DNA of 36,966 nucleotides, taken from NCBI GenBank assembly GCA_018712405.1, contig DVHB01000044.1, forward strand, positions 1-36,966. The letters are read 5' to 3'. The notes under the pieces are model-generated. The model was given only the letters and a program-made list of their open reading frames with translations. It was not told the origin of the DNA and made no database searches. The DNA is from Candidatus Coproplasma stercoripullorum (GTDB lineage: Bacteria; Bacillota; Clostridia; Christensenellales; Borkfalkiaceae). Below are positions 6,531 to 23,338 of the stretch, piece by piece (the first letter of the stretch is position 1; each line of letters starts with the position of its first letter). Made by a program: the position numbers and the translations under genes.

Positions 6531-7067
6531 ATGAAAGAGTTGAAGGGAACAAGGACGGAACAAAATCTTCGCGCGGCTTTTTCGGGCGAGAGCGAGGCAC
6601 GCAACAAATACACATACTTTGCATCCGTTGCCAAAAAGGAGGGCTATAACCAGATAGCCGCCATCTTCGAGGAGACGGCCGCCAATGAAAAGGAGCACGC
6701 CAAGATGTGGTTCAAGCTTTTAAAGGGCATAGGCGATACGCAGGCCAACCTCGTATCTGCGGCTGGCGGCGAGCACTATGAGTGGACCGAGATGTATCCC
6801 GAGTTTGCGCGCGTTGCAAGGGAAGAGGGATTCGATGCGATAGCTACCATGTTCGAGCGCGTTGCAGAAGTCGAAAAGGAGCACGAGGAGCGCTATAAAA
6901 AGCTGCTTGCAAACGTTGAGGGCGGCCGCGTGTTCATCCGCGAGGATGTGCAGATGTGGCAGTGCACCAACTGCGGCGCTATAGTAATCGGCAAAGAGGC
7001 GCCCGATGTGTGCCCCGTATGCGCGCATCCTAAGGCCTACTTCCAGCTCAAACCTGAAAACTATTAA
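6531..7067 (+). CDS. rbr: Rubrerythrin (NADH-linked peroxidase partner)
   Basis: A non-heme di-iron protein that reduces hydrogen peroxide in the cytoplasm of anaerobes. The N-terminal four-helix domain carries the expected iron ligands: Glu in [10 protein letters not shown], then [10 protein letters not shown], and [12 protein letters not shown]-terminal rubredoxin-like domain has two Cys pairs (CTNCG and CPVC) for a single iron that relays electrons. The 178-aa length is typical of short rubrerythrins. GGAGG lies seven bases before the ATG. It begins 72 bases after the Fur-family gene with no clear promoter between, so the two are probably cotranscribed and controlled by that regulator. Confidence 0.95.
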
Positions 7068-7190
7068 AAAAATCCATATAAGCGTCGCATAACTTTGTTG
7101 CGCTGCGGCAACTTTCGGTCATTTACGTCTTTGTAAACTCCCTAAGGTTTTCCTCGCGCGCCTTGTCTTGCTCGCTTCTTTGAATTTTTT
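7067..7190 (+). repeat. Long palindromic intergenic element, copy A
   Basis: Immediately after the rubrerythrin stop, about 124 bases can fold into one long imperfect hairpin. The outer arms (7067-7084 with 7173-7190) pair at 15 of 18 positions. Further in, AACTTT pairs with AAGGTT, and TTTAC (7122-7126) with GTAAA (7133-7137) around the loop GTCTTT. Copy B at 23075-23195 shares the unpaired landmarks GCGTCGCATA, CGGTCA, ACTCCCT and GCGCCTTG, but its arms differ by compensating changes. The copies therefore conserve a fold. Whether it acts as DNA (MITE or REP-like) or as RNA is unknown. Confidence 0.75.
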
Positions 7191-7244
7191 GGTTCGCGAA
7201 TTTTCTGTGCCGGTGACGCCCGATAAATTCGTGAATTATTACAT

Positions 7245-7274
7245 AAATGCCGCGCTGAAAAGCGCGGCATTTTT
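7245..7274. terminator. Bidirectional intrinsic terminator between rbr and the GDPD gene
   Basis: AAATGCCGCGCT (7245-7256), GAAA tetraloop, AGCGCGGCATTTTT (7261-7274). T-runs flank the stem in both directions, so it can serve both convergent genes. Confidence 0.88.
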
Positions 7275-18329: not shown

Positions 18330-18718
18330 GGGCCTGACACAGTTTCGATTGCGGGCAGAGGACGGAGTAAGCATACCGAAGGCTCGGCTTCGTAAAAACG
18401 GAATTTAAATTTAAACGCAGAATCAAAAGATTCCAAAGTTGTTGCATTCCCTGCCTACAGGGCACCTGCAATGGCTTGCGCTGCCTAAGGTTTAGGCGGT
18501 CCGTCGCCTGCGTATCTCCGCCGCATGCAGGGGGCGTCATTCAGGCGGATAACGGTTTTTAAGGCTTTGCCGCGCCTTTAAAACTGTAATTTTGCGGCAC
18601 GCTGCCGCCCTTTCCCCGTTTATCGGGAGGGGCGGAGTAAGCTAAAAGGTAAACTAAGTATGTAGAAAGCCCGCCCGACCCCCGTAAGACCAGAGTGCAA
18701 CTCTCTGCAGGTCCACCA
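18330..18718 (+). ncRNA. ssrA: Transfer-messenger RNA (tmRNA)
   Basis: tmRNA frees stalled ribosomes and tags the unfinished protein for destruction. The ends form the tRNA-like part: GGGCCTG (18330-18336) pairs with CAGGTCC, followed by A and an encoded CCA ending at 18718. The T arm CAGAG-TGCAACT-CTCTG and the D-like TTTCGAT are present, and AACTAAGTATGTAGAA near the 3' end is a tmRNA hallmark. The tag reading frame starts at GCA 18417-18419 and ends at TAA 18486-18488, 23 codons long. It begins AESKDSKVV and ends RAPAMACAA. The stop lies in a hairpin CTGCCTAA/TTTAGGCGG, as in many tmRNAs. The length, 389 nt, is normal. The tag is longer than usual and has Cys where Leu or Val is usual in the C-terminal ALAA. 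Confidence 0.95.
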
Positions 18719-19419: not shown

Positions 19420-21171
19420 ATGGTAAAAGAAATTGCGCACAGCCTCAGGGAGTATAAGCGCGTATCGATTGCCACCCCCGTGCTCGTCACTTTTGAAGTA
19501 TTGCTCGAATGTCTCATTCCCTATGTGATAGCAATACTCGTCGACGAGATACAGGGCGGGTGTACGCTCGAAACTATTCTGATATACGGCGCGATACTGA
19601 TCGTAATGGCCACGGCTTCGCTGGTGTTCGGCGTATGTTCGGGCGCGGCGTGCGCGTCGGCTTCGAGCGGGCTGGCAAAGAATTTGAGGAAGGATATGTT
19701 CTATAAGATACAGTCGTATTCCTTCCAGAATATCGATAAGTTCAACGTGTCCTCGCTGATTACGCGAATGACCACCGACGTCACCAACGTGCAGACGGCC
19801 TACATGCTGCTCATACGCCTTGTGGTGCGCTCGCCGCTAATGCTCATATTCAGCTTTGTGATGGCATTCGTTATGGGAGGAAATCTCGCGTGGGTATTCG
19901 TGGCGGTGGTGCCCCTCCTCGCTGTCGGCCTCACTATAATAGTGGTAAAGACGATCCCGCTCTTTCACAGGGCGTTCAGAAAGTATGATAAACTCAACAA
20001 TTCCGTGCAGGAGAACGTTAAGGCCGCGCGCGAAGTAAAATCTTATGTGCGCGAGGACTACGAGCAGAAGAAGTTCGGCGCCGCTTCGCATGATCTGAGG
20101 ATGGATTTCCAGAAGGCCGAAAGGATACTCGCCTTCAATTCGCCCATAATGCAGTTCTGCCTGTATGTGGTAATGTGCGTGGTGCTCACATACGGTTCGT
20201 ACCTCGTGATAACAGGCGTCGGCAACGAGAGCTCTATAGGCATAGGCGAGCTCTCGTCCATTCTCACCTACGGCTTTATGATGCTCAACAGCCTGATGAT
20301 GCTCTCCATGGCGTTTACGATGATAGCTATGGCGAGCGAATCCGGCAGAAGGATCGTGGAGGTGCTCAAAGAGGAGAGCAGTCTGCAAAATCCCGCGCAG
20401 CCCGTATATGAGGTAAAGGACGGCAGCGTTGACTTCGATGACGTCAGCTTCAAGTATTCCGCCGCCGCAGAGAGAAACGCCCTTTCCGATATCAACCTGC
20501 ACATAAAATCGGGCGAAACGATAGGCATTATCGGCGGCACAGGCTCGTCGAAATCTACTCTCGTGCAGCTCATTTCCCGCCTGTACGACGTATCGGAGGG
20601 CAGCGTAAAGGTCGGCGGCATCGACGTGCGCGAGTACGACATAGAGACTTTGAGAAACAGCGTCGCCATGGTGCTTCAGAAGAACGTCCTGTTTTCGGGC
20701 ACGATAAAGGAGAACCTGCGCTGGGGCGACGAGAACGCCATCGACGAGGAGATAACGGAGGCGGCCCGCCTTGCCTGCGCTGATGAGTTTATCGAGCGGT
20801 TCCCCGAAAAGTACGATACTTATATCGAGCAGGGCGGCGCAAACGTGTCGGGCGGACAGAAGCAGAGACTGTGCATAGCCCGCGCGCTGCTTAAAAAGCC
20901 CAGGATTCTCATTCTGGACGACTCCACTTCGGCGGTAGATACGCATACCGACGCAAAGATACGCAAGGCCATGCGCGAATATATACCCGCAACCACCAAG
21001 ATTATAATTGCCCAGCGTACGGCTTCGGTAGAGGACGCCGACAGGATAATCGTGATGGACGGCGGCAAGATAGACGATATCGGCACGCATGCCGAACTGT
21101 TGAAGCGCAACGCCATATACCGCGAGGTGTACACCTCGCAGAACAAGGAGGGACACGACCTTGAAGACTGA
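19420..21171 (+). CDS. ABC exporter half-transporter A (degenerate nucleotide site)
   Basis: A 583-aa type IV ABC exporter subunit: an N-terminal six-helix membrane domain (about residues 15-310) fused to an ATPase domain. Walker A is GGTGSSKST, with Ser in place of the usual Gly before Lys, a variant seen in this subgroup. The signature is VSGGQ, and Walker B is ILILDD, with Asp where the catalytic Glu normally sits, so its composite site should be weak or inactive. The next gene supplies a normal Glu, as in TM287/288 and BmrCD heterodimers. ATG at 19420 has GGAGG just upstream; the frame extends upstream without a site. The substrate, perhaps a drug, lipid or peptide, cannot be told. Confidence 0.92.
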   Translation: MVKEIAHSLREYKRVSIATPVLVTFEVLLECLIPYVIAILVDEIQGGCTLETILIYGAILIVMATASLVFGVCSGAACASASSGLAKNLRKDMFYKIQSYSFQNIDKFNVSSLITRMTTDVTNVQTAYMLLIRLVVRSPLMLIFSFVMAFVMGGNLAWVFVAVVPLLAVGLTIIVVKTIPLFHRAFRKYDKLNNSVQENVKAAREVKSYVREDYEQKKFGAASHDLRMDFQKAERILAFNSPIMQFCLYVVMCVVLTYGSYLVITGVGNESSIGIGELSSILTYGFMMLNSLMMLSMAFTMIAMASESGRRIVEVLKEESSLQNPAQPVYEVKDGSVDFDDVSFKYSAAAERNALSDINLHIKSGETIGIIGGTGSSKSTLVQLISRLYDVSEGSVKVGGIDVREYDIETLRNSVAMVLQKNVLFSGTIKENLRWGDENAIDEEITEAARLACADEFIERFPEKYDTYIEQGGANVSGGQKQRLCIARALLKKPRILILDDSTSAVDTHTDAKIRKAMREYIPATTKIIIAQRTASVEDADRIIVMDGGKIDDIGTHAELLKRNAIYREVYTSQNKEGHDLED

Positions 21172-23053
21172 AAAGAAAAAGGGTGTGCTTGTGCGCCTGT
21201 TTAAAACGGTGCTCTCCTTCTATCCCGTGCTGCTGCCCGTTGCCATAGCGTGCATAACGCTCACCGCCATAGTGGGAGCGGTGCCCGCAATATTCATGCA
21301 GAGGGTAATCGAAAATATAACCGCAGCTATCAAAAGCAATACGCCTTGGTCGGAGGCGGGCGGCCCCATACTCAACGACGTGTATATACTCATTGCGCTG
21401 TATGTAACTTCGCTTGCCTCGGGCACGGCGTTCGGTCAGCTGATGACGATAATCACGCAGGGCACGCTTGAAAAACTGCGCGACAAGATGTTCAACGGCA
21501 TGCAGCGCCTGCCCGTAAAGTTCTTCGATACCACAGGCCACGGCGACATAATGAGCTATTACACCAACGATATCGACACGCTGCGCCAGCTCATTTCACA
21601 GTCTGCTCCCCAGATACTCATCTCAGGCATAACGGTGCTTTCGGTGCTGTTTATCATGCTCTACTACTGCCTGTGGCTTACTTTGGTCGTGCTTGCAGGT
21701 ACCGCCGTTATGCTCATCGTAACCAAAAAGATAGGCGGCGGCAGCGCGCGCTATTTCGTTAAGCAGCAGCAGGCGATAAGCGAGGAGGAGGGCTATGTCG
21801 AAGAGATGCTCACCGGCCAGAAGGTGATAAAGACATTCTGCCATGAAGAGGCGGCGGAGGCGGGCTTCGACGAGGTAAACGAAAGGCTGTACGACGCCAG
21901 CCGCCGCGCCAACAGGTATGCCAATATGCTGGCGCCCGCGCTCTTCAACATAGGCAACGTGCTGTATGTAATTCTCGCGGTCATCGGCGGCGTATTCCTC
22001 ACGTTCAACGTTTTGAACGTCAGCTTTTCGGGCATGGCAATATCCATAAGCGTTGTAGTGCCCTTCCTCAATATGGCAAAACAGTTTACGGGTAATATAA
22101 ACCAGGTTTCCCAGCAGGTAAACTCTGTCGTAATGGGCATTGCGGGAACCGCGCGCGTGTTTGACCTTATCGACCGCCCGCCTGAGGTGGACGACGGCTA
22201 TGTGACGCTTGTGCGCGCCCGCGAGGAGAACGGCGAAATTGTGGAGTGCAAAGAGCGTACGGGCATGTGGGCATGGAAACATCCCCATCACGCCGACGGC
22301 TCAGTCTCCTACACAAAGCTCCGGGGCGATGTGAGGATGTTTGACGTTGACTTTGAATACGAACCCGGAAAGCCCGTGCTCCGCGGCGTATCGCTGTATG
22401 CAAAACCGGGACAGAAGGTAGCTTTCGTCGGCGCGACAGGCGCAGGGAAGACAACTATCACCAACCTTATAAACAGGTTCTACGATATTGCCGACGGCAA
22501 GATCCGCTATGACGGAATAAATATAAACAAGATAAAGAAAGACGATCTGCGCAGATCGCTGGGCATGGTGCTGCAGGATACCAACCTGTTTACGGGCACG
22601 GTAATGGAGAATATCCGCTACGGCAAGCTCGACGCCACCGACGAAGACTGTATTGCCGCGGCGCGTCTTGCGGGCGCGGATGACTTTATCACCAGGCTGC
22701 CCGAGGGTTACAACACCTTTATAACGGGCAACGGCGCCAACCTTTCGCAGGGTCAGCGTCAGCTTTTATCGATAGCCCGCGCCGCAGTCGCAGATCCTCC
22801 CGTAATGATTCTCGACGAGGCTACATCGTCGATAGATACCCGCACGGAGGCCATCGTTCAGCGCGGCATGGACGCGCTCATGAAGGGGCGCACCGTGTTC
22901 GTCATCGCGCACAGACTGTCTACCGTAAAGAATTCTGACGTAATAATAGTGCTCGACCACGGAAGGATCATCGAGCGCGGTACTCACGAGCAGCTTCTCG
23001 AACAGAAAGGACAGTATTATCAGCTGTACACGGGCGCATTCGAGCTTGAATAA
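21161..23053 (+). CDS. ABC exporter half-transporter B (catalytically complete)
   Basis: A 630-aa partner of the preceding subunit, with the same membrane-plus-ATPase layout. Walker A is GATGAGKTT, the signature is LSQGQ, Walker B is VMILDEATSS with the catalytic Glu, and the switch His is in VIAHRLS. Between the membrane and ATPase parts lies an insert of about 40 residues with MWAWKHPHHADG, absent from subunit A. The start is a TTG at 21161, eight bases after AAGGAGG, and it overlaps the first gene's stop by 11 bases, so the subunits should be made in equal amounts. A heterodimeric exporter is strongly supported. A long palindromic element follows the stop. Confidence 0.92.
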   Translation: MKTEKKKGVLVRLFKTVLSFYPVLLPVAIACITLTAIVGAVPAIFMQRVIENITAAIKSNTPWSEAGGPILNDVYILIALYVTSLASGTAFGQLMTIITQGTLEKLRDKMFNGMQRLPVKFFDTTGHGDIMSYYTNDIDTLRQLISQSAPQILISGITVLSVLFIMLYYCLWLTLVVLAGTAVMLIVTKKIGGGSARYFVKQQQAISEEEGYVEEMLTGQKVIKTFCHEEAAEAGFDEVNERLYDASRRANRYANMLAPALFNIGNVLYVILAVIGGVFLTFNVLNVSFSGMAISISVVVPFLNMAKQFTGNINQVSQQVNSVVMGIAGTARVFDLIDRPPEVDDGYVTLVRAREENGEIVECKERTGMWAWKHPHHADGSVSYTKLRGDVRMFDVDFEYEPGKPVLRGVSLYAKPGQKVAFVGATGAGKTTITNLINRFYDIADGKIRYDGININKIKKDDLRRSLGMVLQDTNLFTGTVMENIRYGKLDATDEDCIAAARLAGADDFITRLPEGYNTFITGNGANLSQGQRQLLSIARAAVADPPVMILDEATSSIDTRTEAIVQRGMDALMKGRTVFVIAHRLSTVKNSDVIIVLDHGRIIERGTHEQLLEQKGQYYQLYTGAFELE

Positions 23054-23074
23054 CAATATTCTAATTTAATCGCT

Positions 23075-23195
23075 AAACCCCGCATATGCGTCGCATAGCT
23101 GTGTTGCGTTTACGGGTGTGTTCGGTCATGTACGTCTGTGTACACTCCCTCACACCTTCCGCACGCGCCTTGCTCTGCTCGCATCTGCGTGGTTT
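23075..23195 (+). repeat. Long palindromic intergenic element, copy B
   Basis: The second copy of the element at 7067-7190, in the same orientation and again just after a plus-strand stop. The outer arms (23075-23090 with 23180-23195) pair at 14 of 16 positions. GGTGTG pairs with CACACC, and TGTAC (23129-23133) with GTACA (23140-23144) around GTCTGT. Arms differ from copy A by compensating changes, while unpaired landmarks CGGTCA, ACTCCCT and GCGCCTTG stay the same. Confidence 0.75.
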
Positions 23196-23236
23196 TATCG
23201 TTGCATATATTGTATAAATTTATTTAAAAAAAGTCT

Positions 23237-23267
23237 GCGGGCGGCGCAAAATTTTTGCGCCGCCCGC
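23237..23267. terminator. Bidirectional terminator between exporter and iscR-like genes
   Basis: GCGGGCGGCGCAAAA (23237-23251) pairs with TTTTTGCGCCGCCCGC (to 23267), a perfect stem of more than 12 bp between convergent genes. AT-only DNA of about 60 bases (about 23280-23345) follows up to the iscR-like stop. Confidence 0.75.
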
Positions 23268-23338
23268 GGCATTTTGATTTATCGTAATTATTAAAAAATT
23301 AAATTAAAATAAAATTGAAATTATTTTTTAATTAATTT

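Follow-up and report, generated by a model that had tools for sequence, protein, structure and literature searches.

We analysed a 36,966-nucleotide stretch of DNA from Candidatus Coproplasma stercoripullorum (contig DVHB01000044.1, positions 1 to 36,966; hereafter the window), which carries two copies, A and B, of a palindromic element located beside the 3' ends of genes. Copy A starts directly 3' of the stop codon of a rubrerythrin gene at position 7067, with the edge of our covariance model (R1) overlapping the stop codon by 2 nt. Copy B starts ~19 nt past the stop codon of an ABC transporter gene. In both copies the better-folding strand reads GGGAG...TGACC, and in copy A the opposite strand has the sense of the rubrerythrin gene. 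A first-pass annotation made from the sequence alone had proposed that the two copies fold into the same long hairpin with arms that differ by compensating changes. Both copies exist and fold on either strand (shuffle z-scores of -3.41/-5.11 for A and -5.06/-6.83 for B), and the inner arm changes it quoted are correct (AACTTT/AAGGTT versus GGTGTG/CACACC; TTTAC/GTAAA versus TGTAC/GTACA). Among its quoted pairs, 7081-7176 are true partners; 7072-7085 and 7073-7084 are impossible as partners in the long hairpin and appear to be slips. The features of the window are collected in Table 1.

Table 1. Features of the window, with the basis of each assignment.
Feature	Positions	Strand	Basis or score
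Palindrome, copy A	7066..7193	- (better-folding strand, GGGAG...TGACC)	model R1, 131.8 bits
Palindrome, copy B	23072..23200	- (orientation as copy A)	model R1, 134.1 bits
Rubrerythrin gene, stop codon abutting copy A	6531..7067	+	Pfam PF02915, 97.8 bits
ABC transporter gene upstream of copy B	21161..23053	+	Pfam PF00664 and PF00005
Ordinary terminator-like hairpin with T-run, 56 nt past copy A	7249..7274	+	read by eye, unscored
Terminator-like hairpin with short T-run, past copy B	23237..23275	+	read by eye, unscored
tmRNA gene	18330-18718	+	118.1 bits

A blastn search of the draft genome with copy A found 41 places. From 45 blast places, 38 were full enough to be aligned and one (L062:91-219) was left out, giving an unfitted alignment (A1) of 37 copies; R1 was built from 37 aligned copies. 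Searching the genome with a covariance model, as had been proposed in the first-pass annotation, placed copies A and B in a family of ~50 copies: R1 gave 54 matches, comprising 49 full-length copies, one weak match (39.6 bits) and four fragments at contig ends. Since contigs C34, C37, C44 and C59 of this genome (G000) end within copies, the real number of copies is probably greater. The conserved unit is ~105-130 bp. Many copies in the genome (for example L045, L054 and L132) have, by eye, common extra flanks on the sense strand, ACTCCGCC on the 5' side and TTATTATTTGC...AAGGTGAAAA on the 3' side, so in this lineage the mobile unit may extend beyond the hairpin. Related genomes carry tandem arrays of the element (L137, L138, L139 and L140) with a period of ~123-147 bases including flanking DNA, and the inner units of these arrays often lack the outermost stem.

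The fold is conserved across the copies. In A1, the 33-pair structure was paired in 94.8% of 1220 cells compared to 75.4% in shuffled alignments (0/500 as high). Cells changed on both sides numbered 249 compared to 76.4 in the shuffles (0/500), and two-sided change was seen in 25 of the 33 stem pairs compared to 19.9 (0/500). The number of further pair types was 57 compared to 50.1 (4/500). Slid registers gave at most 14 pairs with two-sided change, and just 27-41% of the cells paired when the partner was slid by 1-3 columns, a comparison that leans towards the structure because it was derived from the same copies. The first-pass annotation had named a lack of excess compensating changes in further copies as the result that would speak against it; in the 37 copies the excess is far above chance. 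The internal loops, including the GGGAG/TGACC core and purine mismatches, are strictly kept, while the stems change freely yet stay paired.

Compensating change was also observed at a single orthologous site. Copy B has an ortholog in Candidatus Coproplasma excrementigallinarum (L258), where the region shares ~80% nucleotide identity, the element included. Of the 33 pairs, 28 are the same in both genomes and three are changed on both sides and still paired; one pair has become G.T-type by a one-sided change, and an A.G mismatch in the window is a C-G pair in L258. The earlier interpretation stands in part: the compensating changes do keep the fold, but they are not proof of selection on it. 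G.T and A.C intermediates are few and there is little strand preference, so template switching during replication would also be able to produce the pair changes. Strong covariation by itself is not enough to class a sequence as an RNA element.

The element is spread patchily across bacteria. With blastn, 33 of the 37 same-genus genomes matched, as did 3 of 24 others of the order. R1 matched 56 of 151 genomes drawn over the order (34 of 91 genera) and 17 of 249 genomes sampled over the phylum, the source genome included, and related genomes carry from one to more than 20 copies. A pattern scan of GTDB contigs recovered at least 115 stretches, mostly from metagenome bins of Clostridia. Among the matches listed, the records from outside Clostridia were assigned to Gammaproteobacteria, Lysobacterales, Alphaproteobacteria, Rhodospirillaceae, Myxococcales, Verrucomicrobia, Desulfovibrio, Nitratidesulfovibrio, Seleniivibrio and Mucispirillum; these are mostly bins, so individual taxon assignments may be wrong. 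One carrier record, Nitratidesulfovibrio liaohensis XJ01, is titled as a strain. All 17 non-Clostridia loci given to R1 matched, 12 of them across the whole model; because the core pattern had served to select these loci, a match to the core is built in, and the outer stems were under no such constraint. Whole-genome R1 searches of 15 such records gave 1 to 36 matches each. A distant blastn search of phage and plasmid collections with copy B, at E up to 0.01, gave no match, and a pattern scan of IMG/VR gave three stretches in viral contigs.

Copies, orientation and position relative to stop codons were counted, as had also been proposed at the outset, and most copies lie in the same orientation, tightly 3' of stop codons. 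In the source genome, a gene caller found, for nearly every copy, a sense gene with its stop codon no more than 32 nt from the model edge. The upstream genes are different housekeeping genes; khpA, rplJ, rpsG and queA are names assigned from reading C-termini only. The idea that they form a paralogous family of 350 aa was rejected as an artefact of stretches cut at 1 kb. The gene caller, run on 1-kb flanks and trained on the window, fails in other genera, and plain open reading frames (ORFs) were therefore used for the abutment counts. An ORF of at least 100 codons had to end between 45 nt before and 20 nt inside the element, and identical sequences, matches shorter than 110 bases and copies near a locus edge were excluded from these counts and from the classes below. 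A stop codon abutted the element in the sense orientation in 41 of 45 copies of the source genome (antisense 2; random points 8.8%), in 46 of 61 copies of set A3 (antisense 9; random points 9.4%), in 34 of 48 copies of set A4, from genomes G066, G104 and G123 (antisense 8; random points 8.2%), and in 29 of 51 copies from other phyla (antisense 13; random points 9.2%). When 212 distinct copies were classified, 155 abutted the stop codon of an ORF of at least 100 codons and 15 that of a shorter ORF, three abutted the 3' end of a tRNA and eight a terminator T-run (random rate 45/3740), eight were later members of arrays, and 23 were unclassified. Two of these 23 directly follow the 3' end of a tmRNA gene, L075 in a Christensenellales-type genome and L359 in a Verrucomicrobium. 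The tmRNA gene of the window has no element abutting it.

We compared the two strands of the element. The GGGAG strand, which is antisense to the upstream gene, had the lower folding energy in 204 of 216 copies under RNA parameters and in 213 of 216 under DNA parameters, counts that come from related and hence not independent copies. On the GGGAG strand, 193 G.T and 139 A.C cells were counted among 7960 stem cells (a fixed G.T pair excluded), compared to 9 G.T and 1 A.C in a control of 29 tRNA acceptor stems, a small set filtered for pairing; the alignments behind these counts were fitted to the GGGAG-strand model and tilt to G.T, and the tRNA control is biased as well. Since the GGGAG strand folds better and its G.T cells only slightly outnumber its A.C cells, unlike in the small tRNA control, we infer that the element is a palindrome at the level of DNA in which the GGGAG strand is the important one, and not an RNA of the sense strand.

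Comparison with relatives points to turnover. The 3' side of the rubrerythrin gene had no R1 match in any of the seven closest relatives (85-96% protein identity). Over all 30 rubrerythrin loci, R1 found the copy of the window, a copy in L114 that lies 500 nt upstream of the gene, and another in L124, ~120 nt downstream. For 14 sites of G104, 12 of the gene ends could be located in G123, where three are filled, and eight in G157, where none is filled. Dispersed copies with empty orthologous sites are as expected of a miniature inverted-repeat transposable element (MITE). At some gene ends that are free of the element (L196 and L202 in G157; L190 in G123), TAACGG is, by eye, still present at the stop codon; it is possibly a footprint or a target motif. 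In at least four copies (L073, L074, L168 and L175), the gene end, including the stop codon and last codons, reappears as its reverse complement in the outer 3' arm. When flanks were swapped between copies of one genome, copy-specific pairing past the model edge was found in G104 (0/300 swaps as good) and weakly in G191 (6/300). At one site that G104 and G123 have in common, the 3' arm shows, by eye, a change that matches a synonymous one at a third codon position, 8 codon-bases ahead of the stop region.

Of the three guesses offered by the first-pass annotation, a small mobile palindrome fits best, given the patchy copy numbers and the empty orthologous sites. We propose, as a reading with about an even chance of being right, that the copies form an undescribed cross-phylum family of small (~105-130 bp) non-autonomous mobile palindromes, DNA hairpins that are inserted or retained at gene 3' ends. 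In the proposed mechanism, the GGGAG strand, antisense to the upstream gene, would fold as a hairpin of single-stranded DNA. Its conserved loops may be read by a putative recombinase, of the host or of a mobile element, which would copy the hairpin into sites beside the 3' ends of transcription units. The abutment to 3' ends could come from targeting, from selection or from both, and the complementarity of the arms may be kept by selection and replication template switching together; in some copies, the 3' arm would mirror the last codons and the stop codon of the host gene. A further idea, which we consider quite unlikely, is that insertion of a mobile DNA hairpin of a categorically new kind is coupled to RNA 3' ends in the orientation of the transcript, with snap-back synthesis copying the gene end into the arm so that the outer stem is built from the target. 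The landing sites would then be the CCA ends of tRNA and tmRNA, terminator T-runs, and stop codons cleaved in the ribosomal A site. If true, this would be a natural route for attaching hairpins to gene ends, comparable to integron cassettes.

Several observations weigh against the proposal of a mobile palindrome. The class assignment leaves out the 23 of 212 copies that fit no class, the two tmRNA cases among them. Antisense abutment is not rare in other phyla (13/51) and orientation is not absolute: L353 precedes the 5' end of a tRNA, L156 follows a 23S rRNA gene in the opposite orientation, and L188 is inverted with its core lost. Some genes have the element in six genomes, and one that is QueA-like by its C-terminus has it at the stop codon across several genera (L060, L027, L082, L072, L071 and L066), a pattern that vertical retention instead of mobility could explain. 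Neither a target duplication nor an exact empty-site junction could be resolved among the relatives compared, because these are too diverged (75-80% in genes), above all in intergenic DNA. Flank swaps showed no copy-specific pairing past the model edge in G123, G000, G066 and G192 (45, 126, 277 and 205 of 300, respectively), and the wobble counts are tilted as described above. Finally, no mobilising enzyme was found through Y1_Tnp or RVT_1 in element-rich and element-poor genomes. Y1_Tnp, and with it Y1 transposases of the RAYT (REP-associated tyrosine transposase) type, was rejected as a general driver, being present in 4 of 18 element-rich genomes (0 of 9 of the same genus) and in 5 of 12 element-poor genomes; RVT_1, the domain of group II introns and retroelements, was rejected likewise (5 of 18 and 4 of 12, respectively). 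The single Y1 gene of the source genome (L064 2732-3238; G000:C110) has its own hairpin-bearing flanks, which are unrelated to the palindromes, and resembles a TnpA of the IS200 type that has ends of its own.

The same evidence can be set against other explanations. A cis-acting RNA element of the 3' untranslated region (3'-UTR), transcribed as a hairpin that protects the 3' end of the mRNA or delays release of the ribosome and kept by selection, would account for the sense orientation beside stop codons and for an arm that tracks last-codon changes in queA-like genes and in the one gene shared by G104 and G123; moreover, for repetitive extragenic palindromes (REPs) of Escherichia coli that lie no more than 15 nt from a stop codon, PMC12306157 reports reduced translation. 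However, the sense strand is the worse-folding one in 204 of 216 copies, the cells that sense RNA would show as G.U (A.C type) are outnumbered 193 to 139, and copies located beyond terminator T-runs or after tRNA or tmRNA ends are no 3'-UTRs; both copies in the window also have ordinary terminator-like hairpins downstream. We therefore consider such an element unlikely, and the earlier suggestion of a 3' RNA element was right about position but not about the rest. A non-coding RNA of the antisense strand, or an antisense transcription block, that runs from the GGGAG strand into the 3' ends of genes would agree with the better folding of that strand, with its slight excess of G.T over A.C and with its purine-rich internal loops. 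This we regard as very unlikely: the wobble excess is far below that of the tRNA control, and neither a promoter nor a T-run signal could be established, with T-runs tested in the sense direction only. As an intrinsic terminator the element was rejected, since in the sense direction a T-run follows the hairpin at the background rate in the source genome (3/50; background 5.2%); the other sets gave 5/67 (6.8%), 8/45 (9.5%) and 9/54 (5.2%), with an excess, a modest one, in the last two only.

Explanations at the level of DNA divide over what keeps the palindrome and what moves it. The structure may be kept mainly by mutation, as an old palindrome, tolerated nowhere but in non-coding sequence, whose arms are copied onto each other by template switching during replication. 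The scarcity of wobble intermediates, the near symmetry of the strands, the blocks of paired change at the orthologous site of copy B and L258 and the mirroring of gene ends by the 3' arm in G104 are all consistent with this, and replication template switching is a described mechanism, reported in the accessible text of PMC8794818 to create and maintain stems. Nevertheless, it would erase internal mismatches such as GGGAG/TGACC and G.A, which persist across phyla, and it leaves dispersal, fixed orientation and gene-end abutment unexplained, so that as a full account it appears distinctly improbable. REPs or paired REPs (REPINs) moved by a RAYT share the high copy number, the palindromic form, the intergenic location and a GGAG-like tetranucleotide beside the hairpin. 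The small share of element-rich genomes with Y1_Tnp (4/18), the IS200-type appearance of the Y1 gene in the source genome and a unit of ~130 bp instead of 20-40 bp (as given in the accessible text of PMC3733652) leave this very little chance; identification as a palindrome of 20-40 bp end-tagged with GTAG or CGTC was likewise rejected, the unit being ~105-130 bp with GGGAG in its core.

Sites of the integron attC kind, at the ends of cassette genes, can be considered last. An attC site is an imperfect hairpin of single-stranded DNA after a stop codon, with the bottom strand folded, variable stems and end boxes RYYYAAC/GTTRRRY, and the element has the same topology. R boxes were present at both ends in only 5 of 216 copies (0 of 50 in the source genome), and copies are scattered among housekeeping genes and do not form one array, which makes this identity highly improbable.

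Searches of known families agreed with the statement in the first-pass annotation that no named family was recognised. In Rfam 15, the window matched only tmRNA at gathering scores, and positions 7000-7260 matched nothing at E up to 1. No description was found in literature and Rfam searches, and a sequence-text search with six 10-mers returned none on the subject by title among the matches listed; by these searches, the family is apparently undescribed. If the reading as a mobile palindrome is right, it would represent a widespread class of bacterial element, absent by name from curated RNA and repeat resources, which one structural model recognises across phyla, whose position at gene 3' ends is exact almost to the base pair, and which changes in pairs, passing through few wobble intermediates. 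It would also provide a natural test system for how hairpin sites become attached to gene ends, and for the share of covariation that is due to DNA template switching as opposed to selection on RNA.

Compared with known systems, the element resembles integron attC sites, as these are generally characterised, in being a variable-stem hairpin of single-stranded DNA directly after stop codons with the bottom strand folded, and differs in its missing R boxes, its other conserved core and its scattered sites. By description, it is similar to ERIC, BOX and other long imperfect palindromes in size, intergenic location and number of copies; we know of no cross-phylum spread or stop-codon abutment for these. 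REPINs and their RAYTs are likewise non-autonomous hairpin-forming elements dispersed in the genome, but here there is no inverted REP pair and no linked Y1 transposase. The template-switch-maintained hairpins of PMC8794818, as far as the accessible text describes them, share two-sided changes without wobble intermediates; those are RNA genes at fixed loci, in contrast to the dispersed repeat found here. The GTAG and CGTC super-families of REPs (Di Nocera et al. 2013, PMC3733652), again in the accessible text, are also dispersed palindromes with conserved unpaired tags, located mostly downstream of coding regions, and the CGTC class also has no dedicated transposase. A term search of that text found Firmicutes and Clostridia unnamed. 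Those REPs are 20-40 bp long with stems of 5-13 bp, whereas the element has ~130 bp, several covarying stems and kept internal loops. In E. coli, 446 of 4,072 REPs lie within ~15 nt of a stop codon, according to the part of PMC12306157 available to us. The likeness is a hairpin within ~15 nt after the stop codon, an arrangement that concerns a minority of REPs there and is the rule for the element in this order.
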